A stretch of 37,410 nucleotides of DNA from Alphaproteobacteria bacterium (GCA_021776275.1 JAJFGH010000163.1:1-37410), one strand, 5' to 3'; counted from the first letter of the stretch, positions 23,627-32,670 are shown. The notes: a model not told the origin generated them from the sequence alone. Numbers and translations are program-made.

Positions 23627-24093
23627 CCGCCATCTCGATCTGCGTCGAGCGCCTTCCCCACGGCAAGGACCTCGACCTCCCCACCCATGCGACGGACCGA
23701 AGCGCCGGCGCCGACCTCGTGGCGGCGAACGCGACGACGACGGTGCTGCCGCCGGGCGGGCGCCTGCTGGTTCCCACCGGCATCCGCATCGCCCTTCCCG
23801 AGGGTTTCGAGGCGCAAATCCGGCCCCGTTCCGGCCTTGCCCTTCGCCATGGCGTCACCGTGCTGAACGCCCCCGGCACCATCGACGCCGATTATCGCGG
23901 CGAGATCGGCGTGGTGCTCATCAATCTTGGCGAGGCGCCCTTCACGATCGAACGCGGCATGCGAATCGCCCAATTGGTGGTGGCGGCTTGCGCGCGCATC
24001 GCCTGGCAGGAAGTCGCGGACTTGCCAGCAAGCGGCCGTGGCGAAGGCGGCTTCGGATCAACCGGGCTGGATGCCAAACGCGTAGGCGAATAA
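23623..24093 (+). CDS. dut: dUTP diphosphatase
   Basis: [50 protein letters not shown] overlap with coaBC. Confidence 0.96.
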
Positions 24094-24545
24094 TGCGAAT
24101 TTCCAAAAAACTGCTCTTCGCCCTCGAGGCGGTTCTCGACATCGCCTACCATTCCGGTGGCGAACCGGTCCAATCGAGCGACATCACCCGCCGCCAGAAA
24201 ATCCCGAAACGCTATCTCGAACAGGTGCTGCAACAGCTTGTTCGCGCCGGCGTGCTGACCGGCGTGCGCGGCCCGCGCGGCGGCTATCGCTTGGCGCGGG
24301 AACGCCGGCGCATTTCGCTCGGCGAAATCACGCGCATCGTACGCACCCTGGAAACGTCGCAAGACCCCTTGCAGGACACCGCCGGGTCCGAACTTGGCCA
24401 TCGGATCCTGCGGCCGGTCTGGACGGAATTGCTGGAAGAGACGATGCTGCGCCTCGACCGGATCAGCCTCGAAGAGCTGTGCAACCGCGGCAATGCGGCC
24501 GGAATCGTCAGCGAAGCCGCCGAAAAGGTGGATTTCAGTATTTGA
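24093..24545 (+). CDS. Rrf2-family transcriptional regulator without a three-Cys cluster motif
   Basis: [23 protein letters not shown]...IPKRYLEQVLQQLVRAGVLTGVRGPRGGYRLAR; only one Cys; TAATG overlap with dut. Confidence 0.93.
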   Translation: MRISKKLLFALEAVLDIAYHSGGEPVQSSDITRRQKIPKRYLEQVLQQLVRAGVLTGVRGPRGGYRLARERRRISLGEITRIVRTLETSQDPLQDTAGSELGHRILRPVWTELLEETMLRLDRISLEELCNRGNAAGIVSEAAEKVDFSI

Positions 24546-24621
24546 TGTCCCCCCGCGCCACGGCCAAATAACATAGGGGATCGTGGGTCGGACAAAATCA
24601 CCGGGTCCTTGGGAGAAAACA

Positions 24622-25602
24622 ATGTCTGCTGCCAAACTTTCGAGCTACGACGCCAGCCAAATGGGGCGCGGGCGCGTCTATGAAAACTTTCTCGACACGA
24701 TCGGCAACACGCCGCTCGTTCGCATTGCCAAATTTGCGAAAGCCCATCGCTGCGAAGCGGATTTGCTCTGCAAGCTTGAATTTTTTAACCCGCTTGCCTC
24801 CGTCAAGGACCGGATCGGCCTCGCCATGATCGAGGCGGCGGAAAAGACCGGCGCCATCAAACCGGGCGCCGTCTTTATCGAACCCACGTCTGGCAACACC
24901 GGCATTGCGCTGGCCTTCGTCTGCGCGGCGAAGGGCTACCGGCTGATCCTGACCATGCCGGAAAGCATGTCGATGGAACGGCGCAAGATGCTGCAATTGC
25001 TTGGCGCCGAGCTGGAACTGACGCCGGCGGCGAAGGGGATGAAGGGGGCCGTGGCCCGCGCCGAGGAATTGCGCGAGGAACATCCGGAAATGGTCATGCT
25101 GCAGCAATTCATGAACGCGGCGAACCCGGAAATCCACCGGCGCACGACGGCGGAAGAAATCTGGCGCGACACGGATGGCGGCGTCGATGCCGTCATCAGC
25201 GGCGTCGGCACGGGCGGCACGCTTTCCGGCGTCGGCGCCGTTCTTAAAGAGCGCAAACCCGGATTGAAAATGATCGCCGTCGAACCGGAGGACAGCTCTG
25301 TCCTGAGCGGCGGCGCACCGGGGCCCCACAAGATTCAAGGCATCGGCGCCGGTTTCGTGCCCACGATCCTCGATCAAGGCCTGATCGACGAGGTCCTGCG
25401 CATCGGCAACGAGACCGCCTTTTCGATGGCCCGTGAAATCGCCCGGGTCGAAGGCATGCCGGTCGGCATCTCGTCGGGCGCCGCCCTTGCCGCCGCCCTT
25501 GAGGTGGGTTCGCGGCCGGAAATGAAGGGCAAGCAGATCGTCATCATCATTCCCTCTTTCGCCGAACGCTATCTTTCGACGGCGCTGTTCGAAGGGCTTT
25601 GA
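24622..25602 (+). CDS. cysK: Cysteine synthase A
   Basis: [59 protein letters not shown]. Confidence 0.95.
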
Positions 25603-25635
25603 TCCTTCCGGCCGGCAGCCCAAAGGGATCCGGAA

Positions 25636-26451
25636 ATGGCCTTTAACGAGACCCAGGTTCAGCGTTATGCCCGCCACATCGTCCTTCCCGAAGTGGGCGC
25701 GCGCGGCCAAGAAAAGCTCTTTCACGCGAAGGTGCTGGTGGTGGGCGCCGGCGGGCTTGGCTCGCCAAGCCTGATGTACCTTGCCGCCGCCGGCGTCGGT
25801 ACGCTCGGCGTCATCGACGACGACACCGTCGATTTAAGCAACCTTCAGCGCCAAATCGTGCATCCGACAAGCCGCATCGGCACGCCCAAGGTGGCAAGCG
25901 CCGCCGCGACCCTGGCCGAGATCAATCCGGACGTTCGCGTCGTTCAGCATGGCACGCGCCTAACGTCCGAAAACGCGCTCGCGCTTTTCAAGGAATACGA
26001 TTTGATCGCCGATGGCAGCGACAATTTTCCGACCCGCTTCCTGGTCAACGATGCGTGCTATTTCGCGCGCAAGCCCCTGGTCACGGCGGCGGTCTTGCGT
26101 TTCGACGGACAGCTTGCGGCCTTCCGCGCCTATGAAGAGGGAAATCACCCCTGCTATCGGTGCATTTTCCGCGAGCCGCCGCCGCCGGGCTCCGTGCCGA
26201 ATTGTGCGGAAGGGGGCGTTTTTGGGGCCATCGCCGGGGTCATGGGGACGCTGCAGGCGACGGAGGTCGTAAAAGAGCTGCTGGGGATCGGCGAAAGTCT
26301 GGACGCTCACATGCTGATCTATGACGGCCTCAGCAGCACCTTTCGAAAAATTGCCGTCCGGCGCGATCCGGGGTGCCCCCTATGCGGCGACGCGCCAACC
26401 ATTCTAGAAATCGTGCAAGGCGAGGAAGCGGCCTGCGCCACGAAAGGCTGA
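25636..26451 (+). CDS. moeB: HesA/MoeB/ThiF family adenylyltransferase
   Basis: RYARHIVLPEVGARGQEKL, VVGAGGLGSPSLMYLAAAGVGTLGVIDDDTVDLSNLQRQ, CYRCIF...CPLCG zinc motif. Confidence 0.93.
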   Translation: MAFNETQVQRYARHIVLPEVGARGQEKLFHAKVLVVGAGGLGSPSLMYLAAAGVGTLGVIDDDTVDLSNLQRQIVHPTSRIGTPKVASAAATLAEINPDVRVVQHGTRLTSENALALFKEYDLIADGSDNFPTRFLVNDACYFARKPLVTAAVLRFDGQLAAFRAYEEGNHPCYRCIFREPPPPGSVPNCAEGGVFGAIAGVMGTLQATEVVKELLGIGESLDAHMLIYDGLSSTFRKIAVRRDPGCPLCGDAPTILEIVQGEEAACATKG

Positions 26452-27602: not shown

Positions 27603-28115
27603 ATGCGCTTCTCTTGCCGACCCCTTCTTCTTGCCCTTGCGGTGTTTTTGGCCCCAGGCCCAGACATCGTGGATCCGGGCGACGCCCGGGCGGCAACGGG
27701 GTTGCCCCTGCCGCGCTTTGTCAGCCTGCGCGCATCGGAAGTGAACGTCCGCACCGGGCCGGGCGTACGCTATCCCGTCGATTGGGTGTTCCACCGCCAT
27801 GGCCTGCCGGTCGAGATCGTGGCGGAATTCGATACCTGGCGGAAAATCCGGGACGCCGAGGGAACGGAAGGCTGGGTCCATCAAAGCCTGCTGTCCGGCA
27901 AACGCACGGTCCAGATTATCGGCAAGACGCGTTCGTTGCGCCGAAAGCCATCCGGGGACGCAAAACCCGTGGCGACGGCCGAAGCGAACGTCGTCGGCAA
28001 GCTACTGGCCTGTCCGGAAAAGTCGGATTGGTGCCGCCTGCGCCTCGGCGCCTTCGAAGGGTGGATGCGGCGAAACGCCTTTTGGGGCGTCTATCCGGAC
28101 GAAATCATCCAATAA
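27603..28115 (+). CDS. Exported SH3-domain protein
   Basis: Signal peptide; RASEVNVRTGPGVRYPVDWVFHRHGLPVEIVAEFDTWRKIRDAEGTEGWVHQSLLSGKR bacterial SH3 repeat. Confidence 0.9.
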   Translation: MRFSCRPLLLALAVFLAPGPDIVDPGDARAATGLPLPRFVSLRASEVNVRTGPGVRYPVDWVFHRHGLPVEIVAEFDTWRKIRDAEGTEGWVHQSLLSGKRTVQIIGKTRSLRRKPSGDAKPVATAEANVVGKLLACPEKSDWCRLRLGAFEGWMRRNAFWGVYPDEIIQ

Positions 28116-28713
28116 CGCCGGCTTCGTCGAAATCCTCTGCCAGCGCGGCCCGGACATGCGCGGGAATTTCCGCCATATGGGCATAGCCCTTGTGGCGAAT
28201 GCCGAGAATCACTTCCGTCTCGGGATCGCGGAAAGCGCGAACGGCCTCTTTCGGAAAAGCAAAGCGCAGGAAGTGCACGGAAGAAGCCTTGCCGCCTTGG
28301 GTCGAGCGTTCCACGTCCGATTCCGGCACGGCGGGAATTTGCGTTTCGCCCACATGCAAAACAACCGTCTCTTCAATGCCGCCGATGGTTCTTAGAAACG
28401 CGTCCCGGCGGTCCGCGTTTTCGACCTCGAACATCAAGGTGGCAACCAGCTCGCTGCCCTTTGGAATCAACGGGTTATAGGTCTCCAATTCGCCCGCGAT
28501 CTGGGCCTCGCCCCCCTTTTCGATGTAGAGCATCTCGTGCACCTGCCACCACATCGTGTCGTAGCTTTCAAAATAAAACATCGCGTAGGGGCCGACGGCC
28601 GTGCGCCGGTCTTTTTTGATGTCCGAAATTTCCGTGCGCCGGTCTTTGCGAATTTTCGCATATTCCGCCATCGGCAAAATATCTTCCCGGGTAAGCGCGC
28701 GCTTTTTCGTCAT
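28105..28713 (-). CDS. DUF3501 family protein
   Basis: [72 protein letters not shown] overlap with the Fe-S gene. Confidence 0.88.
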   Translation of the reverse strand: MTKKRALTREDILPMAEYAKIRKDRRTEISDIKKDRRTAVGPYAMFYFESYDTMWWQVHEMLYIEKGGEAQIAGELETYNPLIPKGSELVATLMFEVENADRRDAFLRTIGGIEETVVLHVGETQIPAVPESDVERSTQGGKASSVHFLRFAFPKEAVRAFRDPETEVILGIRHKGYAHMAEIPAHVRAALAEDFDEAGVIG

Positions 28714-30056
28714 GTCAGAGAAATCCCATAGGCATGGGCAAAAAGTTCGATCGGATGATACGATTCTTTTGGCGCCGCGCCGGCATCCAGCCGTTCGACC
28801 CCTTGCACGATATGCGCCCCCGCAAGCGGGCATTCCGATGCCAGATAGGTTTTCTTCGCCTCGGCCGCCTGGCGGGCGACGGGTTTTCCAACCTTTAGGG
28901 CGGTCTCGAAATTCGCCTTCATCACCCCCCACGAGCCGCCATGGCCCGAGCAACGCTCGATCACCTTCACGTCCGCCTTCGGCAGCAAGCGAAGCATTTC
29001 CGCCGCTTTCTGGCCCATGTTCTGGGCCCGGGCGTGGCAGGCCAAATGCAGCGCGACGCCCCCTTCCAGGGGCTGCAGCCCTTCCGCCAGGCCCTCTTTC
29101 GTCGCCAGATCGACGACATATTCCGTGATGTCGAAGGTGGCTTTCGCAAGCTTTGTCACCGCTTCCGCTTCGGGAAGCAGCAACGGCCATTCGGCTTTCA
29201 ACATCAACGCGCAGGAAGGCACGAGCGCGATCACCGCATAGCCTTTGTCGATCCAGGGCGCCATCTCGCCCGCTACTTTCTGGGCGCGCGCCGCCACCGC
29301 TTCCAGATCGCCATGCTCAAGCTTTGGCATGCCGCAGCATGCGGGGTAGACGATTTCCGTCTCGACGCCGTTCTTGGCCAGAACGGCGCGGGCCGCAAGG
29401 CCGATTTGCGGGTTGTTGTAATTTGCGAAGCAGGTCGCATAAAGAACGGCCTTGCGCCCGAAGGCCGGCGCGTCGCGGTTTACGGTAGCCGGTTCGTCCG
29501 CCGCGCGGGCGGTAAAGCTTTTGCCCTGAAATTTCGGCAGCGCCGCGTCGCGGTGAACGCCGGCAACGCCTTCAACCACGCGCCGTGTCCATTTGTTTTC
29601 CGTGTCACTTGCCCAATTGACCAGCGGCGCAACGGGCGCGGCAAGCTTGCCGTTTCGGTCCGTCTCCGCCAGCTGGCGCGAAGCAAGCGGGATTTTTTTC
29701 TCCTTCCGCTCCATCGCCCGGTAGCGCAGCATCAGATGGGGGAAGTCGAGATCAAATTCGTGGGGCGGCACGTAGGGACATTTCGTCATGAAGCACATGT
29801 CGCAAAGCGTGCACGCGTCCACGACCGGCTTAAACGCTTCGTTCGGAACGTCCTCCAATTCGCCGGACGGCGTCGCGTCGATGAGATCGAAAAGTTTGGG
29901 AAAGCTGTCGCAAAGATTGAAACAACGCCGGCAGCCATGGCAAATATCAAAGACGCGGCGGCATTCCGCCTCGATCTCCTGCCGGTCCGTATAGCTGGCC
30001 TCGGTCCACGGAATGGGGTGACGCGTCGGTGCGCCGGAATGCCCGTCTGCTGCCAT
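28710..30056 (-). CDS. Fe-S oxidoreductase with two 4Fe-4S motifs and CCG-type domains (HdrCB/GlpC-like)
   Basis: [27 protein letters not shown]-type C-terminal region YPACCGMP and [13 protein letters not shown] ribosome site upstream of ATG 30056. Confidence 0.92.
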
Positions 30057-30082
30057 GTCCTTACCTCCGGTTGCCGGCGGTC

Positions 30083-30118
30083 AAAAAAGAAGGGGATGCC
30101 AAATGAAGCATCCCCTTC
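30083..30118 (-). terminator. Strong intrinsic terminator between rubrerythrin and the Fe-S gene
   Basis: Minus strand GAAGGGGATGC-TTCATTTG-GCATCCCCTTC (perfect 11-bp stem) followed by TTTTTT. Confidence 0.88.
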
Positions 30119-30142
30119 GCATTCACGCTTATGGCCGGGGGG

Positions 30143-30565
30143 CTATTGGCCAAGCGTGTCGAGAGATTTTTGGAAGCGTCCCGCGTGGGACTTTTCGGCC
30201 TTCGCCAAGGTTTCAAACCAATCGGCGATTTCGTCGAAGCCCTCTTCGCGGGCGGATTTTGCCATGCCCGGATACATGTCCGTGTATTCATGGGTTTCGC
30301 CGGCAATCGCCGCCTTCAAATTGTTGTCCGTCGCGCCGATCGGCTCGCCGGTTGCCGGATCGCCGACCTCTTCCAGAAATTCGAGGTGGCCATGAGCGTG
30401 GCCCGTTTCGCCTTCGGCGGTCGAGCGAAAAACGGCGGCGACGTCGTTGAAGCCTTCCACGTCCGCCTTCTGGGCAAAATAAAGATAGCGCCGGTTCGCC
30501 TGGGATTCGCCGGCGAAGGCCGCTTTCAAATTTTCTTCGGTTTTCGTTCCTTTGAGCGACGGCAT
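30143..30565 (-). CDS. Rubrerythrin-family diiron protein lacking a rubredoxin domain
   Basis: [28 protein letters not shown]...[15 protein letters not shown]...[12 protein letters not shown]...[12 protein letters not shown]; no cysteines; ATG at 30565 or 30577. Confidence 0.95.
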
Positions 30566-30579
30566 GTTTTCCTCCATAG

Positions 30580-30606
30580 CCTGTTGTCTTGATGAACCTG
30601 TTGTCT
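30580..30606. repeat. Direct repeat CCTGTTGTCT x2 in the rubrerythrin leader
   Basis: Exact 10-mers at 30580-30589 and 30597-30606 (17-bp period). Confidence 0.8.
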
Positions 30607-30686
30607 GGATAGCGTTGCCGGGGCCCTGGCCAGGCCCCGCGAAGATTTCCCGGGTCGAAGGCCTTAAAAGACCGCCACCCCATAAA

Positions 30687-30701
30687 TTAGAATGGTTCTA
30701 A
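30687..30701. promoter_or_regulatory. Irr/Fur-superfamily operator-like palindrome TTAGAA-TGG-TTCTAA
   Basis: Perfect 6-3-6 inverted repeat resembling the alphaproteobacterial ICE/Irr box core; between irr and rubrerythrin. Confidence 0.68.
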
Positions 30702-30728
30702 CATATGCCCGGATAACCTGATACGCAA
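30700..30728 (-). promoter_or_regulatory. Predicted rubrerythrin promoter
   Basis: Minus strand TTGCGT (30723-30728)-N17-TATGTT (30700-30705); -10 overlaps the palindrome. Confidence 0.5.
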
Positions 30729-30752
30729 TGCTTATTTTTGAAGTTTGGGAAA

Positions 30753-31175
30753 TCAGCCGTCCGAATCGGCGACGTGCAATATCACGTCCACCCGCTTCAA
30801 AAGCTTGCCGGCCGGCGGTTCGGGCAAGCGGCTGAGAACCAGCTGGTCGGCCGGAACGTCGCGAAGCTCGCCGCTGGCTTCGTAAAAGAAATGATGGTGG
30901 TCACTGATATTCGTATCGAAATAGGCGCGGCCCGATTCGACCACGACCTCGCGAAGCAGGCCGACCTCGGTAAACTGATGAAGGGTATTGTAGACCGTCG
31001 CCAGGGAAACCCGGATGCCGGCGGTCAAGGCCTCGCCATGCAATTGCTCCGCCCGCACATGGCGGTCCGAACCATCAAACAACAGCTTCGCCAGCGCCAG
31101 GCGCTGGCGGGTCGGGCGCAGGCCCGATTCCCTCAAGAGGTCGTAGGCGTTTGCATAGGGACGATCGGGCACCAT
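30753..31175 (-). CDS. irr: Fur-superfamily transcriptional regulator, Irr-like
   Basis: LRESGLRPTRQRLALAKLLFDG, RVSLATVYNTLHQFTEVGLLREV, YFDTNISDHHHFFYE (HHH motif); Irr vs PerR call is by motif only. Confidence 0.85.
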   Translation of the reverse strand: MVPDRPYANAYDLLRESGLRPTRQRLALAKLLFDGSDRHVRAEQLHGEALTAGIRVSLATVYNTLHQFTEVGLLREVVVESGRAYFDTNISDHHHFFYEASGELRDVPADQLVLSRLPEPPAGKLLKRVDVILHVADSDG

Positions 31176-31229: not shown

Positions 31230-31272
31230 GGGATAGCATCGGCTTTATTCGCTTTTTTGGAAGTATCCTAAA

Positions 31273-32670
31273 TTAATCGCCGGTGAGCAACCGCTCAAAC
31301 AGCTCGCGCACCGTCGGAACGTAGCCATTGGCGTAGAAAGGGTCCGATTTGAAGCGAAAGGCGTTGTGCCCGGCGAACATCAGCTCGTTGTTCAAATCGC
31401 CCCCATGGGCGATGGCTTGCAACGTTTTCTGGATGCAATAGGAGCGCGGGTCCGGCTTCTTCCCGGTCGTGCCCGTTCCTTCCTGGGACCAATTGCTGAA
31501 CTGGCAGGCTGAAAGGCACCCCATGCAGCCGGTCTGGTCCGCGCGAATCTGTTTTGCGTTCTCCGGGGTGACGAATACGAGAGTCGAATCCGGCGTGCGC
31601 AGTGCCTCCGTGTACCCCGCCTGCACCCAGCCATCCGCCCGGGTCTTGTCGGGGGCCGTCAGAAAGACGCCCTTCTTGCGCGCGCCGATGCTGAAAGCAA
31701 CCTGGTGCTCGCCTACCGGCTCGACCGTATAGGCAATTTGGCGCTCGCTCCGCCCTTGAAGATCGCGAAGAAACGCATTGCCCACGCAGGAAGAATAAAA
31801 GCCCGTCGGGCTGAACCGGTTTAGCTCAACGTCGCCCTCGCTCAATTGCAGCAGGCGGCGTTTCCATTTTTCCGGGATCGGGCTTTCCTTCGTCAGCAAG
31901 GGCCGTGTACCGAATTGAAAACAGATCGGGCCCAATTCCGGGTTGTCGATCCAGTCTTCCCACTCGCGCAAACACCAAACCCCGCCGGCCATCACGATCG
32001 GCGTATCGCCGAGGCCGAATTCGCGCATTTGTTCGCGCATGGCGCGCACGCGCGGATAGGGGTCTTCCGGCATTTCCGGGTTCTCGCTGTTGCTGAGGCC
32101 GTTGTGCCCGCCGGCGCGCCAGGGGTCTTCGTAAACGACGGCGCCCAGAAGATCCGAGAATTTGTGATAGGCCCGTTTCCACAGCGCCCGAAAAGCGCGG
32201 GCCGACGAAACGATCGGGTAATAATAGATGCTGTAGCGCGCGCTGATCTCGGCCAGGCGATATGGCATCCCCGCGCCGCAGGTGACCCCGTGAACGAGCC
32301 CTTTCGCGCCCTCGAGAATGCCGCGAAGCACGATTTCCGCGCCGCCCATCTCCCACAGCACGTTGACGTGCAGCCGGCCCTGGCCGTTCGACATCTCATG
32401 GGCGATCCGCGCCTGCTCGATGCCGCCACGAATGGATTGTTCGATCAGTTCCTGATGGCGTTCGCGGCGATTGTGACCTTGATAGACATAAGGAATGGGA
32501 TGGCCGTCGGCATCGTAACTATCCGCGTTCACACCGGAGAACGTGCCGATGCCGCCCATCGCCGCCCAGGCGCCCGAACTTTCGCCATTGGAGATGGCAA
32601 CCCCTTTGCCGCCCTCGACAAGAGGAAGCGTCTCTCTTCCGGAAAGAAGAAGGGGGTTCAAGGCCTTCAC
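31273..32670 (-). CDS. Nitronate monooxygenase/NAD(P)H-dependent flavin oxidoreductase family protein with a C-terminal Cys motif
   Basis: GGIGTFSGVNAD, VHGVTCGAGMPYRL, PIVMAGGVW, GPICFQFGTRPLLT; C-terminal CMGCLSAC-x22-C. Confidence 0.85.
   Translation of the reverse strand: MKALNPLLLSGRETLPLVEGGKGVAISNGESSGAWAAMGGIGTFSGVNADSYDADGHPIPYVYQGHNRRERHQELIEQSIRGGIEQARIAHEMSNGQGRLHVNVLWEMGGAEIVLRGILEGAKGLVHGVTCGAGMPYRLAEISARYSIYYYPIVSSARAFRALWKRAYHKFSDLLGAVVYEDPWRAGGHNGLSNSENPEMPEDPYPRVRAMREQMREFGLGDTPIVMAGGVWCLREWEDWIDNPELGPICFQFGTRPLLTKESPIPEKWKRRLLQLSEGDVELNRFSPTGFYSSCVGNAFLRDLQGRSERQIAYTVEPVGEHQVAFSIGARKKGVFLTAPDKTRADGWVQAGYTEALRTPDSTLVFVTPENAKQIRADQTGCMGCLSACQFSNWSQEGTGTTGKKPDPRSYCIQKTLQAIAHGGDLNNELMFAGHNAFRFKSDPFYANGYVPTVRELFERLLTGD

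Follow-up and report, generated by a model that had tools for sequence, protein, structure and literature searches.

The window considered here is a 37,410-nucleotide stretch of DNA from an Alphaproteobacteria bacterium (GCA_021776275.1, JAJFGH010000163.1:1-37410), in which four genes on the minus strand code in turn for an Irr regulator, a rubrerythrin, an Fe-S oxidoreductase and a DUF3501 protein. This order (irr, rbr, rfo, DUF3501) had been read in an initial annotation of the DNA and was confirmed by profile matches (Table 1); the ATGA junction between the last two genes was likewise found, the ATG of the DUF3501 gene overlapping the stop codon of rfo. In 2016 Cardenas et al. (PMC5114695) described a system of aerobic-type rubrerythrins that lack rubredoxin and whose genes lie together with those for DUF3501 and an oxidoreductase named RFO. 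The trio also occurs in the mitochondria of several protists, the same system name being used for Andalucia (PMC7050145). In the window, the two markers of this system, a PF12007 DUF3501 protein and a GlpC-related COG0247-type RFO, are co-located with rbr, and the trio is almost certainly an ordinary alphaproteobacterial member of the aerobic-type rubrerythrin system. We propose that this system is directly controlled by the adjacent Irr, a reading to which we assign a probability of about two in three.

Table 1 Features of the window, with positions counted from its first nucleotide
Feature	Position	Strand	Basis or remark
irr, Fur-family iron/heme response regulator	30753..31175	-	NCBIfam NF045678, PF01475, alignment
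Irr box (ICE-like palindrome) TTAGAA-CCA-TTCTAA	30687..30701	.	exact; kept between irr and rbr in relatives
Putative sigma-70-like promoter TTGCGT-N17-TATGTT	30700..30728	-	-10 lying across the box's 5' half; similar pair in the three other genomes of the genus
rbr, aerobic-type rubrerythrin	30143..30577, start probably 30565	-	PF02915, 108 bits
Terminator-like hairpin, 12-bp stem then T6	30089..30118	-	fold z = -3.1
rfo (RFO, Fe-S oxidoreductase)	28710..30056	-	PF02754; GlpC models below cut-off; alignment, fold
DUF3501 protein gene	28105..28713	-	PF12007, 201.6 bits
Weak Irr-box-like site upstream of irr	31257..31271	.	2 mismatches; 1-mismatch copy in the counterpart region of locus L087
Nitronate-monooxygenase-like gene	31273-32670	-	weak PF03060 match
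SH3-domain protein gene	27603-28115	+	convergent with the DUF3501 gene
Rrf2-family regulator-like frame, then cysteine-synthase-like and MoeB/ThiF-like genes	23988-26451	+	translations alone

Results and discussion

The regulator encoded by irr scored 201.9 bits against the NCBIfam IrrA model (NF045678, cut-off 150) and 179.7 bits against a second Irr model (cut-off 170). Its HxH motif is present (SDHHHF), with H93 and H95 invariant in alignment A3, and the protein contains no cysteine, so that it lacks the cysteine heme regulatory motif. That motif belongs to the Bradyrhizobium type of Irr, while the Rhizobium leguminosarum protein works via its HxH site (PMC7762939).

The rbr product gave a weaker ferritin match overlapping that to PF02915, and its best relatives in the PDB were a Burkholderia rubrerythrin and sulerythrin, the similarity to the latter agreeing with an aerobic type. 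A start at 30565 is likelier than one at 30577 because it is preceded by GGAGG, which is conserved in the genus, and because it aligns in the four genomes available for that genus. The rubrerythrin had been predicted to lack a rubredoxin of its own, and this was borne out, since the protein is devoid of cysteine and hence has no rubredoxin domain. When peroxide enzymes were examined family by family in these four genomes, of which two are 99% and two 89-91% complete, no match was found in them to rubredoxin, catalase or the PF00141 peroxidases, and a PF10417 peroxiredoxin was present in one.

The function of this rubrerythrin can be judged from published work on relatives. Ferriperoxin from Hydrogenobacter thermophilus, likewise a rubredoxin-less rubrerythrin of the aerobic kind, is a peroxidase, and a strain in which it was disrupted fails to grow at 10% O2 (PMC3317640). 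In Sulfolobus, rubrerythrin, the glpC-like SSO2643 and the neighbouring SSO2644-2645 are induced by H2O2 (PMC2739297). The growth defect of the disruptant and the induction by H2O2 support the view that the window system would act in peroxide defence.

The neighbourhood, on whose conservation the initial annotation had staked its reading, proved to be widely kept. A class-wide draw of 289 alphaproteobacterial genomes included 138 that contain DUF3501; 135 neighbourhoods were fetched, giving 136 loci with the window. The order irr>rbr>rfo>DUF3501 was found on one strand in 109 of these, spanning 60 families, which is far above chance; in 13 the trio stands without irr, and contig ends truncate some of the others. 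In a separately fetched named set (including Azospirillum, Sneathiella, Oceanibaculum, Dongia and Parvibaculum) the same order was found at 64 of 80 loci, the two samples overlapping to an uncertain extent because some records may be the same genomes. Across the class, Irr was present in 124/138 genomes with DUF3501 and in 53/151 without it, as raw counts uncorrected for phylogeny.

A phylum-wide draw, in and outside the class, gave 19 further loci at which the trio is intact and irr does not lie upstream. Among the upstream open frames listed for loci without irr, judged by eye, no recurring adjacent regulator was seen; translations placed a peroxiredoxin-like gene beside the trio at one irr-less locus (L235) and a catalase-like gene at another (L241). 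In two alphaproteobacterial genomes, G377 (locus L234) and G460 (locus L239), the DUF3501 protein scored on a level with its counterparts from other classes of proteobacteria (E = 1.5e-74 and 1.4e-71), which suggests that these two genes were horizontally transferred.

The irr-rbr gap of the window carries an exact copy of the palindrome TTAGAA-N3-TTCTAA, which occurs without mismatch nowhere else in the genome of 1.7 Mb. The palindrome was identified as a putative Irr box by its form, its linkage to irr and the iron control element (ICE) of the literature. Allowing up to two mismatches, the box was found in 93 of the 109 linked irr-rbr gaps of the class-wide draw, as against 0/109 for RFO-internal sequence and 1/109 for the rbr-rfo gap, the best match in shuffled gaps averaging 4.6 mismatches. 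In the named set it was present at 52 of 64 irr-linked and 1 of 12 unlinked loci, and the pooled count was 145 of 173 linked gaps. It is thus at two levels, gene order and a conserved box, that the proposed link with Irr proved real, and Irr very probably controls the rbr operon through this putative site. The initial annotation had offered iron and peroxide as possible signals: a response to iron or heme fits the link with Irr, and a response to peroxide through Irr was not substantiated.

Several further sites were recorded. The second, weaker box-like site, upstream of irr, might conceivably mediate autoregulation of that gene. Other near-matches in the genome of the window, among them C21:12762 and C21:6114, the latter inside a bioF-like gene, were uninformative. 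In one genome (G049, locus L191) two exact boxes lie 32 bases apart upstream of rbr (C7:94960 and C7:94992) and may form a tandem site. At two loci whose trio has no linked irr (L232 and L239), the palindrome TTAGATTGATTCTAA was found near rbr and may be the site of another Fur-family regulator.

The position of the box relative to the promoter was then compared at the 145 boxed linked loci. At 129 of them the box abuts a downstream -35 element, an activator-type position: the -35/-10 pair begins 10-15 bases past the box centre, mostly at +12, against a background of 5.5%. The other 16 deviate. Seven of these (L138, L140, L156, L159, L171, L281 and L285) have an exact TTGACA upstream, so placed that the box falls in the spacer or past the -10. 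The four genomes of the window genus are also among the 16, with a weaker upstream pair whose -10 (TATnTT) appears to coincide with the box's 5' half. Rudolph in 2006 reportedly linked boxes upstream of a promoter to positive control, and those covering the -10 or the start to negative control. Since the box position differs, the predicted outcome of iron scarcity is activation by Irr in most alphaproteobacteria and repression in the window genus, where the box seemingly covers the -10; for the latter prediction we regard the odds as evenly balanced. A broader evolutionary view is speculative and on balance unlikely. In it, the alphaproteobacterial aerobic rubrerythrin operon has had Irr as its own local regulator since its ancestral state, and the sign of iron control was switched in some lineages, the window genus included, when the box moved from its place immediately before the -35 into the spacer or onto the -10.

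A terminator-like hairpin lies between rbr and rfo in the window. Using one fixed criterion for all three types of gap, such hairpins were found in 53 of 216 rbr-rfo gaps (1.6 expected from shuffles), compared with 6 of 169 irr-rbr gaps (1.7 expected) and 1 of 222 rfo-DUF3501 gaps (0.2 expected). The hairpin therefore weakens the case for simple co-transcription of the genes. We take it as a possible partial (leaky) terminator that would hold rubrerythrin above RFO and the DUF3501 protein; rfo may also be transcribed separately.

RFO had been annotated as an Fe-S protein with two 4Fe-4S motifs and CCG-type domains. The ferredoxin-type motifs, CTLCDMCx4CP among them, and the first of its two CCG modules (PF02754) are complete; the second is degenerate, with CSGH in place of CCG and the second cysteine gone. 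This feature is general, RFOs from alphaproteobacteria and other proteobacteria having CSGH in the second module and the last CxxC reduced to one cysteine, so that CSGH...(E/D)C(P/A) stands where Escherichia coli GlpC has CCG...DCETC. The predicted structure (predicted local distance difference test score, pLDDT, 90.4) resembles LutA, EtfD and HdrB in fold; the CCG-core fold is common to RFO and GlpC, EtfD, HdrB and LutA, and GlpC also has ferredoxin-type motifs. Assignment as GlpC itself was rejected, as two intact CCG modules are not present and the scores fall below both GlpC equivalog cut-offs (196.7 vs 278 and 117.3 vs 279.9 bits).

RFO is the sole dedicated redox partner adjoining rbr. 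That it serves as a substitute for the lost rubredoxin, with GlpC as its nearest relative, was already suggested in print in 2016 (PMC5114695), and the same idea in the initial annotation is plausible. As rubredoxin is missing from the genus, it is an unlikely donor here, and the lack of rubredoxin, catalase and PF00141 peroxidases is consistent with RFO as donor, short of proof. We place the chance that RFO passes electrons to the rubrerythrin slightly above even.

The DUF3501 protein gave a confident AlphaFold2 model (mean pLDDT 94.5), whose sole match in a PDB fold search was its own Burkholderia homologue, 3fjv. No cysteine is conserved in the DUF3501 alignment and an Fe-S or thiol role was rejected on this ground; a match to DarT (E = 0.13) was dismissed as noise. 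Its earlier description as an accessory subunit is a guess.

Among the genes around the locus, the nitronate-monooxygenase-like gene lies directly upstream of irr, and a PF03060-like gene occupies the same place at several other alphaproteobacterial loci (e.g. L072, L076, L077, L080 and L087-L089). The SH3-domain gene on the other flank recurs beside the trio, mostly on the opposite strand, with 73 matches over the fetched loci. The more distant Rrf2-family, cysteine-synthase-like and MoeB/ThiF-like genes are listed in Table 1.

Overall, the following mechanism can be proposed for the locus. The di-iron site of the rubrerythrin would reduce H2O2 and perhaps organic peroxides. Its electrons would most likely come, in place of rubredoxin, from RFO, which resembles GlpC and HdrB and combines a pair of ferredoxin-type clusters with an altered CCG module. 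The DUF3501 protein would most likely aid electron transfer, or the loading or assembly of the rubrerythrin, although any role stated for it is doubtful. We infer that Irr binds the palindrome in the irr-rbr gap; were it to do so, transcription would follow iron or heme status, with a sign set by the position of the box, and the hairpin past rbr would keep the rubrerythrin in excess of its two partners.

Several observations weigh against this proposal. The -35 of the window is weak, with three mismatches, so that support for the repressor geometry comes from four genomes. Irr affects mbfA and ccpA modestly in Rhodobacter sphaeroides; ccpA has its start ~40 nt past its box and is slightly higher without Irr (PMC3413700), making it a poor fit to a simple activator rule. 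Proteins of the AhpC-TSA superfamily are present in the window genus, and the rubrerythrin may therefore not be its main peroxidase. Ferriperoxin reduces H2O2 in vitro with NADPH and FNR, without RFO (PMC3317640), so that RFO may not be the donor and is not shown to be obligatory; some archaea, the Thermoproteales, have rubrerythrin and DUF3501 without RFO (PMC5114695).

These last two points favour a variant in which the same trio draws on ferredoxin/FNR or another general reductase, while RFO and DUF3501 repair or mature the di-iron site or clear another oxidised product. If the hairpin does terminate transcription, the making of RFO and DUF3501 below the level of rubrerythrin would also suit it. 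The family of RFO (GlpC, EtfD, HdrB) moves electrons in complexes, however, the trio is almost universally linked and the genus has no rubredoxin, and we judge this variant unlikely, though it is the strongest of the alternatives.

The rubrerythrin might instead be used mainly for iron handling, as a ferroxidase or in iron detoxification (cf. Irr-controlled bacterioferritin and MbfA), with peroxide a mere oxidant. Iron storage and export genes are indeed the typical targets of Irr (PMC7762939). In SAR11 bacteria Rbr, which may lie outside a trio there, rises 1.57-fold on iron limitation and was called a putative ferroxidase by the authors (PMC2864753). A storage gene would not, however, be expected to rise when iron is scarce, the loss of ferriperoxin results in sensitivity to peroxide and O2 (PMC3317640), and an adjacent RFO implies a need for reducing rather than oxidising power, all of which makes this use as a main function improbable. 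Least probable is that irr lies beside rbr by inherited order alone and acts on distant iron genes, the palindrome being an irr autoregulatory or other Fur-family site: gene order can last without function and many Irr-bearing genomes hold further exact copies of the motif (0.75 per genome vs 0.16 for a reversed control), but the box sits between the two genes, past irr and ahead of rbr, mostly at a fixed +12 from the -35 of the rbr promoter, is rare at loci not linked to irr and has its only exact copy in the window's genome here. Those further copies, which also occur in trio-bearing genomes, led us to reject the notion that Irr acts only locally in every species.

Direct control by the adjacent Irr, the reading we prefer, can be set beside known systems. 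With the RBR/RFO/DUF3501 system (PMC5114695) the window shares gene content, gene order, the absence of a rubredoxin domain, a GlpC-like RFO and the proposed role of the latter. The text of that paper mentions Irr 0 times, and neither an Irr box nor a promoter geometry nor a terminator behind rbr was seen there. In Hydrogenobacter thermophilus, unlike in the window, rfo is separate from rbr and the DUF3501 gene (PMC5114695), and ferriperoxin differs in its in vitro reduction by FNR (PMC3317640). The Sulfolobus solfataricus cluster SSO2642-SSO2645 likewise joins rubrerythrin to an adjacent glpC-like gene, but is archaeal, and Irr is not described there (PMC2739297). Irr/iron control element regulation in Bradyrhizobium, Rhizobium and Rhodobacter is alike in its Fur-family Irr, HxH motif, A/T-rich box and position-set sign, Irr activating or repressing according to the location of the box (PMC7762939, PMC3413700), whereas irr adjoins its putative target operon in the window. 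The known Irr-controlled rubrerythrin-like gene mbfA (blr7895) codes for a membrane protein, whereas the window rubrerythrin is soluble. What is added to the known system is a conserved Irr box with two arrangements relative to the promoter, together with the hairpin after rbr; no earlier report of them was found in a literature that did not cover the main ICE papers (Rodionov 2006, Rudolph 2006) or the Magnetospirillum IrrB paper.

Conclusions

In most trio-bearing alphaproteobacteria Irr adjoins the rubrerythrin operon with a matching box at its promoter, and iron status therefore probably sets peroxide defence directly. Which partner feeds electrons to rubrerythrins without rubredoxin, and what DUF3501 does, are questions that date from 2016 and concern the mitochondria of several protists as well; the window genus offers a natural setting where rubredoxin is an improbable source. 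The conserved box predicts the conditions under which the operon would be switched on, as well as lineages that would respond oppositely to iron; if the switch of sign is true, scarce iron would raise peroxide defence in most species, and iron or heme sufficiency would do so in the switched lineages, the window genus among them. If control by Irr is true, heme/iron sensing and peroxide removal would be joined at one locus across much of a bacterial class.

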